From NCBI RefSeq assembly GCF_904846695.1, contig NZ_CAJHBR010000016.1, positions 1 to 64,000 on the forward strand: DNA of 64,000 nt, given 5' to 3'. This DNA comes from Psychrobacter urativorans (lineage in GTDB: Bacteria > Pseudomonadota > Gammaproteobacteria > Pseudomonadales > Moraxellaceae). Positions 41,512 to 45,807 of this stretch are shown one piece after another. Each line of letters opens with the position of its first letter. Positions within the stretch are counted from its first letter, which is position 1. The notes beneath the pieces were generated by a model that was given only the letters and a program-made list of their open reading frames with translations, did no database searches and was not told the DNA's origin. A program made the translations under genes and the position numbers.

Positions 41512-42642
41512 ATGACAACAGTAGTAGTGAAGATGAGAGTTAGTATGCTAGCTAGTAAAAAAACATCACCGTATCGCAAAAATAGCCTGCTGCTATTAAG
41601 CACGCTATTTATTGTCGGCTGTCAGCCAGCTACTGATGAAGTTTCTGCTCCTGCTCCTAACAGTGAAAACTCGCCTATCGTCGCTGATGCTGAGACGGTG
41701 ACTATGAGTCAAAATCATATTTTAAGTATCAAACCTTCACGCTATCAACCAAGTTTAGGCTTGCAAGGCGATATCGAACCTATAAGACAAGCTCGTCTTA
41801 AGTCAGCCCAAGCGCTAATAGTGCAACAAGTATTAGTGACTGAAGGTCAATGGGTGGAAGCGGGAACGCCCCTATTCGTAGTACAGCGCCAAGCACTTAA
41901 ACAATCGGCTCAAAATGATGAGGTTACCGATGAAGGTACTTATGCAAGTACTGATGCAAGTACTAATGAAGGGACTGATAGAATAAAAGTCGGTCAGCCC
42001 CCTTCCTCTAAAGCGACTACCATAGAGCTGATAACTGTCAAAGCGCCTATTACTGGTCGGGTAGATCGACTCAATATAGCAGCAGCGCAGCAAATAGCGG
42101 CTAATACCCCGTTGCTGCGTTTAGGGGATGACAATAATCTACAGTTCATCGCAACCGTGCCTATGCAAGCGCAGTCGCAACTCTCTGTAGGTCAAAACGT
42201 CAATTTCACCAGAAAAGGTATGAATGATAAATTCACTGGACAAGTCAGTGAACTGCTAGCCAGTGATAGCCCTGATAAACTGAAAGTTTATGTGCATATC
42301 ATCGATAATGAAGCCAGCCGTGGCAAGCTCAAACCTAATGTGGCAGTGAATGGTCGGGTAGACTATGGACAGATAGAGGTTGGGACTATCGTTCCTGAAA
42401 GCGCTATTCATGATGTCGATTTGTCAGTGCTAAAAGTCGCCCCTTATCGACCTATTATGCCTTTGACAGCCAACGTTTGGATTATTCAACAAGACCAACG
42501 CCTCACTCGTCAACCAGTAGAAGTTATCGAATATGACCCTATTGCTGATCGCTATCTGATCGCTGGTATTAATAACGATAGCCTGATCTGCTTAGCAGAA
42601 CTACCGCTGAAATCTGCTGGTAAAAAAGTCATTATTTCTTAA
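41512..42642 (+). CDS. Membrane-fusion-type periplasmic adaptor lipoprotein without a pump
   Basis: 376 residues; starts at 41512, 41533 or 41545 are possible, the last with GAGAG upstream and a tight lipoprotein signal (lipobox IVGC). An RND/HlyD adaptor fold is visible: GLQGDIEPIRQARLKSAQALIVQQVLVTEGQWVEAGTPL (split biotinyl-lipoyl half), ITVKAPITGRVDRLNI (second half), then a beta-barrel part. A Thr/Ser/Asp insert (~145-165) replaces the usual helical hairpin. No RND or ABC pump is adjacent; the next genes are a two-component pair. It may serve a pump elsewhere. Confidence 0.75.
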   Translation: MTTVVVKMRVSMLASKKTSPYRKNSLLLLSTLFIVGCQPATDEVSAPAPNSENSPIVADAETVTMSQNHILSIKPSRYQPSLGLQGDIEPIRQARLKSAQALIVQQVLVTEGQWVEAGTPLFVVQRQALKQSAQNDEVTDEGTYASTDASTNEGTDRIKVGQPPSSKATTIELITVKAPITGRVDRLNIAAAQQIAANTPLLRLGDDNNLQFIATVPMQAQSQLSVGQNVNFTRKGMNDKFTGQVSELLASDSPDKLKVYVHIIDNEASRGKLKPNVAVNGRVDYGQIEVGTIVPESAIHDVDLSVLKVAPYRPIMPLTANVWIIQQDQRLTRQPVEVIEYDPIADRYLIAGINNDSLICLAELPLKSAGKKVIIS

Positions 42643-42951: not shown

Positions 42952-43674
42952 ATGAGCAAGCAGATATTATTGATCGAAGATGATCCAGATTTAGCTGAAT
43001 TGATCAGCGATTACTTAACTATGAATTACTATGACGTTCATCATGCTGGTCTTGGTCAAGAAGGTTTAGATATCTTGGATACCAAAGAGCGTGATATAGA
43101 TCTAGTGGTTTTAGATTTGATGTTACCAGATATGGATGGTATGCAAGTTTGTCAGAAGGTTCGTGGCAATAAGAACAATATGACTAATAAAGTACCTATC
43201 ATCATGCTAACGGCCAAAGGCGATACTACCGATCGCGTCCTAGGGCTAGAGATGGGTGCTGATGACTATATTTCTAAGCCTTTTGAGCCACGTGAACTGC
43301 TAGCCCGTATTCGTGCTGTTATCCGCCGTCACGAGCAGCCTAATCAAGCAGAAAGCCAGTCAGACAGCTTAACTTTTGGTCGTTTGAGTGTCTATCCTGA
43401 TAGTCATGAAGTCACTATCGATGAGCAGCCAGTACGCCTAACTACCCATCAGTTTCAGTTGTTACATTATTTTGCCACGCATTCTGGCAAAGTACTTAAT
43501 CGTGAACAGTTATGGCAAGCGATGCCTAATGATGATAGCTCAGACAATATAGATCGCGCTATTGATGTACACATCTCACGCCTGCGTGCGCTGATTGAAG
43601 ATAATCCACGCCAGCCAAAACGCATTATTACTGTACGTGGTGTTGGTTATCAATTCGCTACTGATCAAGTTTAA
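42952..43674 (+). CDS. OmpR-family response regulator
   Basis: 240 residues. The receiver is at 1-120 (LLIEDDPDLAEL, LVVLDLMLPDMDGMQ with phospho-Asp, MLTAKGDTTDRVLGLEMGADDYISKPF). The winged-helix output is at ~140-236 (LTTHQFQLLHYFATHSGKVL, DRAIDVHISRLRALI, ITVRGVGYQF). Pairs with the kinase gene 90 bases downstream. Target genes unknown; the adaptor gene just upstream is an obvious candidate. Confidence 0.93.
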   Translation: MSKQILLIEDDPDLAELISDYLTMNYYDVHHAGLGQEGLDILDTKERDIDLVVLDLMLPDMDGMQVCQKVRGNKNNMTNKVPIIMLTAKGDTTDRVLGLEMGADDYISKPFEPRELLARIRAVIRRHEQPNQAESQSDSLTFGRLSVYPDSHEVTIDEQPVRLTTHQFQLLHYFATHSGKVLNREQLWQAMPNDDSSDNIDRAIDVHISRLRALIEDNPRQPKRIITVRGVGYQFATDQV

Positions 43675-43764: not shown

Positions 43765-45807
43765 ATGCAGCAATTAGGGTTTTACTCTGTTTTTGCCAGA
43801 CTATTTGCCAGCGTCATGCTGGCACTTATCTTATTTGCCGTAGCAATGGTATTGCTAACTCAATTGGTACATGACAAAGATGCTAGTATTCGCTCTGAAG
43901 TATTAGCGACTCAAATTTTGGGACAAATAGACCCTTTTTTACAAGAGCTCAATGTCTCAGTTAGTAAAGAAAATAGACTGCAAGCACGCTTTATGTTGGC
44001 AGTAGTAAAAAAAAGCTTCGATATCTTTGATGAGTCGCTACAAGCCAAAATGGGCTTGTATGACAATCAAGGTAAGTTGTTGATGCAGACTGATAATAGC
44101 GATTTGCCATTAGAGCTGCCAGCAACGCCCTCTTTATTATCTCGCGTATTCCCTTCTATTGTAGATACTCCGCCGACCCAACAAGCTCAGGTTTATAGTA
44201 GTACTGGCTACACTTTGCTATACGAATCGCGCTTGCCGCCCAAAAAGCCTGTGTTGTCTGCTGCACTAAATTTATTCACTGGCACCTTATTACTGCTATT
44301 GATCATGTCGGGTGCGCTGTGGTGGATTGCCCGCTCGATGACTTGGCGTATCAACCAGATGAGTCAGCAAATGGGACAGTTGGGTGATGGCGACTTTAGC
44401 GTCAGAGTGAATGCTCGTGGTAATGATGAGATTGCCCTACTAGCACGTGGCTTTAACCAAGCAGCGCAAAAGATTGAGCATCTAATCAATGCTAATAACT
44501 TATTATTAGCCCATGCCTCACACGAGCTGCGTACCCCTATTACTCGTATCCGCTTGCAAATCGAAATGATGGATATGCTTACTGAGCCGCTACCCAGCGA
44601 TAATAAAGCAAAGTTTGATAAACGCGCTCAAGCCATCAATCGTGACTTGTCGGGTCTAAACGATTTGGTCGAGAGTATCTTGCTGGTCAGCCGTTTAGAT
44701 GCGGGTCATGTGATGCAACAAATAGAGACCTTAGACTTATATGACTTAGTCAATCAAGAGCGCCAACATTTCTCTGAGAGTACTTTGATTGGTGAGCATA
44801 TCGTCATTGATGGTCAACCGGCTATGCTGACTCACCTCATTCGTAACTTATTGACTAATGCTATGCTGCATGGCGAGCCACCAGTCACTGTCTTATTATA
44901 TGGGGTACAAAGTATCGATAAAGCCGATACTGTCCCTGATTACTTGATGCAGTCTTTATTGTCTAACAGTTTGCTTGATTATAATAATTCAGCTTATAGC
45001 CATTATGATGACTCATTCACTGAGGCTGAGTCGTCAAAACCTAGTCAATATGAACAAGCTAATAATGTTGCTACTGATGGGTCTCGTAGCAATAATCAAA
45101 AAGCTAAAGATAACCGTGATAAGCTTAAAGCTGAATCCCTCGAGTCTACTACAGGCATAGATACACTACCGGCACCTATTATTTATTGCAATGGCGAGAC
45201 CTTGATAGACGGTATTGATATTATTGACAACAGCGATCACTCTGATGCTCTTGACTATAGTACTGATGCTAGTACGCAAGCAGCTTTAACATCTCGATCA
45301 ACAGGGTCGCCGTCAACATTGACAGACACTGTGATCTATGACGATGAACCTATCATCAAAAATACCAGCTCAAATGACAGTAATAAGCCTAATCAAAATA
45401 ATGATAAGGCGCTAGTGAAAGCAGATAAAGCTGAAACTAGCAAAGCATCAGAAGACACTGCTAACGCTCCTCGTAAAGAAAGCTTGTTTAAAAAGCACTT
45501 AAAAAAATCCAAAGCTGAGCCTATGCGCCCATTGCCTAAATATGTAGTGCTGGCAGTAATTGACGAAGGTCAAGGAATTCCTGAAGCTAAACGCGAAGAA
45601 ATCTTTAGCCCTTTTGTACGATTACAACAAAAGAAAAAAGGGTCGGGACTGGGATTGTCATTAGTCTCACAAATCGTCACCGCCCATCAAGGCCGCATTA
45701 CGACTGACACTATCAATGGCTACACACGGTTTTTGGTAGTATTACCGGTGCACCATGATCCTGATTACAATTATAACGACCATGATAGCCATAACCTAAC
45801 AGGCTAA
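43765..45807 (+). CDS. Sensor histidine kinase with a long insert in the ATPase domain
   Basis: 680 residues, where ~450-480 is usual. Helix 1 ~10-34, sensor region ~35-165, helix 2 ~168-190, HAMP ~190-240. H-box HASHELRTPITRIRL has His253. The N-box (LIRNLLTNAMLHG; Asn361, Asn365) is followed by ~200 residues of Ser/Asp/Asn/Lys-rich sequence before the G1 box DEGQGIP (Asp600). The F and G2 boxes follow (IFSPFV, GSGLGLSLVSQIV). The two ATPase halves are usually ~35 residues apart. The frame is continuous, so the insert is real. Partner of the upstream OmpR-type regulator. Confidence 0.92.
   Translation: MQQLGFYSVFARLFASVMLALILFAVAMVLLTQLVHDKDASIRSEVLATQILGQIDPFLQELNVSVSKENRLQARFMLAVVKKSFDIFDESLQAKMGLYDNQGKLLMQTDNSDLPLELPATPSLLSRVFPSIVDTPPTQQAQVYSSTGYTLLYESRLPPKKPVLSAALNLFTGTLLLLLIMSGALWWIARSMTWRINQMSQQMGQLGDGDFSVRVNARGNDEIALLARGFNQAAQKIEHLINANNLLLAHASHELRTPITRIRLQIEMMDMLTEPLPSDNKAKFDKRAQAINRDLSGLNDLVESILLVSRLDAGHVMQQIETLDLYDLVNQERQHFSESTLIGEHIVIDGQPAMLTHLIRNLLTNAMLHGEPPVTVLLYGVQSIDKADTVPDYLMQSLLSNSLLDYNNSAYSHYDDSFTEAESSKPSQYEQANNVATDGSRSNNQKAKDNRDKLKAESLESTTGIDTLPAPIIYCNGETLIDGIDIIDNSDHSDALDYSTDASTQAALTSRSTGSPSTLTDTVIYDDEPIIKNTSSNDSNKPNQNNDKALVKADKAETSKASEDTANAPRKESLFKKHLKKSKAEPMRPLPKYVVLAVIDEGQGIPEAKREEIFSPFVRLQQKKKGSGLGLSLVSQIVTAHQGRITTDTINGYTRFLVVLPVHHDPDYNYNDHDSHNLTG

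Follow-up and report, generated by a model that had tools for sequence, protein, structure and literature searches.

In the plant cytokinin receptors the β2-β3 linker holds an insert exceeding 50 residues, opposite the ATP site, which is said to distinguish these receptors from bacterial histidine kinases (PMC10779265). The same paper describes a shorter insert at the β2-β3 place of CckA from Caulobacter crescentus, where it forms an α-helix (PMC10779265). WalK of Streptococcus mutans carries a disordered C-terminal tail in which a Trp stands among acidic residues; this tail is reported to bind WalR, and efficient phosphotransfer and phosphatase activity depend on it (PMC9087282). An insert in the Psychrobacter/Moraxella kinase was described in no paper among the literature matches listed.

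The window, i.e. the whole stretch of 64,000 nucleotides of Psychrobacter urativorans DNA analyzed here, encodes on the + strand (43765..45807, ATG start) a sensor histidine kinase of 680 amino acids, as assigned from the open reading frame, Pfam and an AlphaFold2 model. Two long hydrophobic helices, recognized by eye and in the model, and a sensor region are followed by HAMP (residues 187-238), HisKA (244-314) and a split HATPase_c domain, scoring 48, 44.2 and 60.4 bits respectively, all above the curated cut-offs; these three were the only domains returned by Pfam at E up to 0.1, with neither a CHASE nor a receiver domain. The HATPase_c match was confined to residues 592-662 (profile positions 36-109), and by starting at 592 it illustrates how a domain profile can truncate such a kinase. 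The highest NCBIfam scores were obtained with EnvZ (NF007004, 126.9 bits) and RstB (NF007898, 126.7 bits), both falling short of the respective cut-offs of 415 and 478 bits. The phospho-acceptor His253, Asn365 of the N box (44857..44859, + strand), Asp600 of the G1 box (45562..45564, + strand) and the glycines G602, G604, G626, G628 and G630 were invariant in 68 aligned rows, leaving the N, G1 and G2 boxes intact, and superposition of the model on ThkA (3a0t; Z 18.7, rmsd 1.9 over 139 residues, model range 316-667) returned an intact Bergerat fold. The kinase is probably catalytically active.

Asn365 and Asp600 are 235 residues apart, a value already given by the initial annotation and recovered on the 680-residue frame. 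That annotation had set the usual spacing at about 35; the large excess stands, and the usual value came out a little shorter, 23-32 in the 11 kinases scored in a small control, a single genome of genus g15, which we take to be Acinetobacter (the Acinetobacter-like matches being presumably BfmS). Sequence comparison indicates that the insert responsible is real, old and lineage-wide, placed at a known site for inserts and of a length far beyond the published case. Tentatively, and with less than even confidence, we read it as a flexible arm for interaction, the cognate regulator being its most likely partner.

Box spacing, orthologue alignment and the AlphaFold2 model, the latter built with 67 orthologues, place the insert at residues 380-592 (213 residues; 44902..45540, + strand). 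Residue counts (29 Ser, 24 Asp, 19 Lys, 19 Ala, 17 Asn and 17 Thr) agree with its earlier description as rich in Ser, Asp, Asn and Lys; Trp is absent. The strand preceding it, assigned by DSSP on the model, spans residues 374-381 (VTVLLYGV; 44884..44907, + strand), and the chain re-enters the modelled fold at the strand 593-603 (45541..45573, + strand), 7 residues ahead of Asp600, which this strand bears. The block pLDDT values of the two strands were 93 and 96. Because of these flanking strands and the superposition on known kinases, the insert is read as a replacement of the β2-β3 turn; in the model it occupies this turn and the remaining ATPase fold is normal. By strand order the turn would correspond to the β2-β3 linker of the cytokinin-receptor paper. 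The ATP lid, at about 605-626, connects G1 to G2 and is separated from the insert by G1. Judged by strand length, the ends of the insert would be about 20 angstrom from the nucleotide residues, and the insert thus appears distant from the ATP site. Its location within the ATPase domain, as first proposed, is borne out by the model and the orthologues, in which it sits at a strand-strand turn inside the fold and not at a domain border, the other placement that had been considered.

Within the insert, ordered patches alternate with disordered linkers. Motif 1 (IDKADTVPDYLMQSLLSNSLLDY; residues 384-406, 44914..44982, + strand) was predicted as a helix in the models of two orthologues, the window protein and its relative L034. 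In the window protein it comprises helices 384-388 and 392-406, with pLDDT falling from 93 (381-390) through 86 (391-400) to 58 (401-410). Linker A (residues 411-466, 44995..45162, + strand), variable and with pLDDT under 50, leads to motif 2 (LPAPIIYCNGETL; residues 468-480, 45166..45204, + strand), for which both models predict a small β-hairpin, located at 474-479 in the window protein with a block pLDDT of 81. Linker B (residues 483-573, 45211..45483, + strand) is again variable with pLDDT under 50 and leads to motif 4, a basic stretch defined by its conserved pattern (RKESLFKKHLKKSKAEPMRPLPK; residues 570-592, 45472..45540, + strand). Model confidence for motif 4 was low to moderate (block pLDDT 47 and 66), which counts against a docking arm. 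The helix recurred in the L034 model (blocks 96 and 91), as did the hairpin (86 and 70), and a further helix was predicted there at motif 3, of KIKKVIW type (51 and 75). Structure prediction, suggested as a check in the initial annotation, returned a helix and a hairpin between disordered linkers in the β2-β3 turn: the predicted disorder holds for residues 411-466 and 483-573 and fails for the helix 384-406 and the hairpin 474-479.

A search of 100 genomes of the genus found the kinase in each. Among 149 genomes drawn from the family it was present in 41/41 of the own genus, 21/22 of g10 (taken as Moraxella) and 5/6 of the genus g7, and in none of the 80 representing the other 13 genera, where the best matches were 2e-22 or weaker. 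Loci were extracted for 82 Psychrobacter (81 of the 100 searched genomes plus G201), 21 Moraxella and 5 g7 kinases, and both boxes could be placed in 106 of the 108 (80/82, 21/21 and 5/5); L124 and L125 were left unscored since the gene is broken, and L123, split over two frames, was scored on the longer one. These three loci (genomes G058, G056 and G076 for L123, L124 and L125, 84-86% completeness) are the 3/100 genus genomes in which the kinase occupies more than one frame, which may be due to sequencing error. The spacing between the N and G1 residues was 135-324 (median 271) in the 80 Psychrobacter loci, where the insert is longest, 114-139 in the g7 loci and 70-129 (median 84) in the Moraxella loci, with no value under 70 among the 106 scored orthologues. 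As even the shortest orthologue spacing exceeds the 23-32 of the g15 kinases, the insert is probably ancestral to the three genera. The orthologue alignment proposed earlier for mapping length and conservation thus gave a spacing of 70 to 324, with both ends of the insert conserved and the linkers diverging.

Selection was estimated as dN/dS pooled over 23 independent, non-overlapping pairs with 80-97% identity. Values of 0.023 and 0.043 were obtained for the core before and after the insert, 0.144 for motif 1, 0.371 for the linker and 0.141 for motif 4. On these pooled pairs the linker evolves loosely, not freely, and the ends of the insert are kept. For the window protein against its sister G030 alone, motif 4 (0.232, 32 codons) was not below the linker (0.209), which counts against a docking function. 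Synonymous change was alike throughout the kinase (pS 0.26-0.31), and the linker value of 0.270 resembles the core values of 0.272 and 0.31, so that no second constraint on the insert DNA is apparent. An overprinted gene within the insert was rejected on this core-like synonymous change and since no other open reading frame of at least 80 residues overlaps the kinase. A repeat or mobile origin was rejected as well, no tandem array being reported in the insert; a search of the own genome (that of the window) with the L034 insert found, apart from this gene, one match elsewhere at E 0.06.

The patches differ in how widely they are kept. In motif 1, A387, P391 and L394 are retained in at least 90% of 68 rows, and P..[LIM] occurs within the first 25 insert residues in 80/80 Psychrobacter and 21/21 Moraxella sequences; its absence from all 5 g7 sequences weighs against the docking reading. 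The motif 2 pattern [YF].NG was found in 65/80 Psychrobacter sequences, against a mean of 1.6/80 in shuffled ones, and corresponds to a single state change on the tree (support 100/93), being kept in 65/65 rows of its clade; it is missing in the other 15 Psychrobacter, in all 21 Moraxella and in all 5 g7 sequences, a further point against docking. The motif 4 pattern is present in 80/80, 21/21 and 5/5 sequences of the three genera (shuffled Psychrobacter mean 8.0/80). The last 32 insert residues are net positive in 80/80 Psychrobacter, 20/21 Moraxella and 5/5 g7 sequences. The linker is net negative in 79/80 Psychrobacter, 5/5 g7 and 6 Moraxella inserts, those 6 being the ones among 21 long enough for linker charge to be measured. 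The mean end charge was +4.24 compared with -1.97 in shuffles, a contrast inflated by shared ancestry; tested per sequence, the shuffle test gave p<0.05 in 86/106 cases, including the window protein (p 0.010). The acidic-then-basic order of the insert sequences thus exceeds what composition would give by chance.

Motif 3 occurs in most Psychrobacter inserts (for example L034, L040 and L122) and is supported as an amphipathic helix, its helical moment of 0.55 being reached by 3% of shuffles. G030 (L029) lacks it, and so does the window protein; its absence from the latter counts against a docking arm, as does the rejection of amphipathic helices for motifs 1 and 4, whose helical moments were not above those of shuffles. 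As a text pattern, motif 3 shows 8 changes on the tree, at least 6 of them on starred branches. Repeated loss is not claimed, since most of the 10 rows scored as lacking it hold intact, partial or worn copies: L031 is intact with an Arg, six are worn or partial (L030, L074, L107, L120, L033 and L032), and any trace is missing only in the window protein, L029 and L075.

Directly upstream of the kinase lies the gene for its partner response regulator, a 240-residue protein of the OmpR family (42952..43674, + strand; Pfam Response_reg and Trans_reg_C), preceded by an HlyD/RND adaptor-like gene (41512-42642, Pfam); ABC transporter genes, which we take to be metN, metI and metQ, are found downstream. 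A 24-base repeat at 41925-41979 encodes a TDEGTYASTDASTNEGT stretch in the adaptor-like gene, another low-complexity stretch of this neighbourhood, and at the start of the window, positions 1-294, the hexamer ATCAGC is repeated about 49 times. Regulator identity is 92-97% in other Psychrobacter rows, 87-90% in Moraxella, 77-79% in g7 and at most 48% in other genera among the best rows listed, and its conservation far exceeds that of the kinase. Since the two proteins show a like distribution, the sequences indicate a two-component system limited to one sub-lineage of the family. Among 80 named loci (77 Psychrobacter, 3 Moraxella), 78 have the regulator beside the kinase, and in 69, all of them Psychrobacter, the adaptor-like, regulator, kinase and three transporter genes occur together. 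Of the two exceptions for the regulator, L225 is cut by a contig end. In the other, the metagenome-assembled Psychrobacter contig L214, a search of the 5 kb upstream gave no regulator match at E up to 1e-3, which counts against docking of the regulator. The g10 genome G146 (2.0 Mb, rated 100% complete) gave no candidate for either kinase or regulator, an odd outcome for a response-regulator search.

The data establish where the insert lies in sequence and model, that boxes and fold are intact, the age of the insert, its conserved patches and its order of charges; we further infer that the conserved patches may bind something, and that the bound partner may be the regulator. In the mechanism proposed, the β2-β3 turn of a working membrane sensor kinase, on the face away from ATP, would have grown into a flexible arm. 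The helix after the first strand, the central hairpin (in most Psychrobacter) and the basic stretch before the next strand would be the parts kept, and the acidic low-complexity linkers between them would vary freely. Such an arm could hold a partner near the catalytic domain, the first candidate being the cognate OmpR-family regulator, and by holding it might tune phosphotransfer or phosphatase activity. We prefer this docking function because conserved patches are set on acidic linkers, the insert is anchored at both ends and the regulator, whose gene adjoins that of the kinase in nearly all named loci, is far more conserved than its partner. It is supported by the slower evolution of motifs 1 and 4 relative to the linker on pooled pairs, by the ordered patches in two orthologue models, by the clade-wide retention of motif 2, by the kept charge order and by the WalK precedent. 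The presence of the insert in all 106 scored orthologues and the lack of another convincing match of the L034 insert in the own genome also argue for it.

The close rival, plausible enough that we give it nearly equal weight, is mostly neutral growth, whereby surface turns of Psychrobacter kinases gather polar low-complexity sequence and the conserved ends merely protect the fold. A turn far from the active site would tolerate growth, the pooled linker dN/dS is 0.371 and the length of the linker changes freely. The strongest argument comes from the other kinases of the genus: a spacing above 50 was found by pattern in 4 of the 14 kinases scored in the own genome and 4/11 of G094, in both cases with the window kinase or its orthologue included, compared with 0/11 in the g15 genome. 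The further values were 71, 63 and 56, with one more at 50, in the own genome, and 65, 63 and 53 in G094. Rows left unscored in the three genomes (13/27, 13/24 and 10/21) had boxes missed by the pattern or belonged to the same gene; for L005 of the own genome the pattern gave 41 from wrong boxes and the spacing was about 75 by eye. Moderately enlarged β2-β3 turns (50 to about 75) were thus seen in the own-genome kinases L005, L017, L008, L009 and L021. The stretch between G1 and G2 that forms the ATP lid is enlarged, and rich in Ser, Asn and Gln, in L027, L018 and L021, and such enlargement of some lids also fits general growth. Since several kinases exceed 50 in the two genomes and none does in the control, Psychrobacter kinases tend to a grown turn; it looks like a habit of the lineage with the present gene as its extreme, the spacing of the window-kinase type being about 3 to 4.4 times that of the next largest kinase. 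Enlargement at the same place in other kinases, in pointing to a general habit, weakens the case for a docking arm. Neutrality is harder to reconcile with the constraint on motifs 1 and 4 in pooled pairs, with the retention of motif 2 throughout its clade, far from the ends of the loop, and with the absence of any scored orthologue with a spacing under 70.

An unlikely alternative is an intramolecular cap, in which the helix, the hairpin and the basic end would pack onto the kinase's own ATPase domain, HisKA or HAMP of the dimer and set the movement of the ATPase domain with no outside partner. The two patches ordered in both models and the oppositely charged acidic and basic segments on one chain would suit such a cap, against which stand the modest whole-model confidence (pTM 0.45 and 0.55 for the models of the window protein and L034) and a motif 4 that is not confidently ordered.

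The initial annotation had placed the insert near the ATP lid and proposed that it could regulate nucleotide access or bind a partner; the second of these is the reading preferred here. That it gates the nucleotide jointly with the lid is very improbable: the insert does lie within the ATPase domain between two nucleotide-binding boxes, but both of its ends open at the strands' far turn, with the lid across G1, and in cytokinin receptors this turn is described as opposite the ATP site (PMC10779265). As the β2-β3 turn faces away from ATP, the lid idea is unsupported, and we rejected it on topology and on this published description. A frameshift or misassembly fusing unrelated sequence into the gene, for which nothing specific speaks beyond the multi-frame genes in 3/100 genomes, is barely conceivable, as a near relative (94% identity) carries the same insert in frame on a 3.2 Mb scaffold and an insert occurs in 106/106 scored orthologues; the single open reading frame agrees with the earlier statement that the insert is in frame, and the assembly error considered there is ruled out by the orthologues.

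Returning to the docking arm, the kinase can be set against the systems closest to it. It shares domain order, boxes and an adjacent OmpR-family regulator with the EnvZ/RstB class, whereas only about 16 residues separate the two matched stretches of the EnvZ chain 4cti. CckA is a hybrid PAS kinase; its catalytic domain (5idm) superposes on the window model with Z 15.9 and rmsd 3.4 over 149 residues, and it differs in its shorter insert. The WalK tail and the present insert are both disordered appendages with acidic residues, a likeness of working and not of kinship; the WalK feature is a Trp in a disordered C-terminal tail, whereas the window insert is internal and devoid of Trp, a difference that counts against docking. 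With the plant cytokinin receptors (AHK/StHK) the likeness is one of site: box spacing and model strand order give the window kinase well over 50 inserted residues between β2 and β3, and an insert above that length is the feature reported for them. A docking arm whose folded anchor points recruit the regulator or another client, as a use of the β2-β3 turn separate from that of the cytokinin receptors, is a possibility that we entertain with some doubt. Among species the extra length is graded between about 40 and about 300 residues, a natural gradient in which to ask if a long disordered loop in a signalling enzyme's core is tuned or merely tolerated. The window kinase is a HAMP kinase with neither CHASE nor receiver domain, and its insert of about 205 residues, with spacings up to 324 in relatives, represents a bacterial lineage with a far larger insert than that of the cytokinin receptors.
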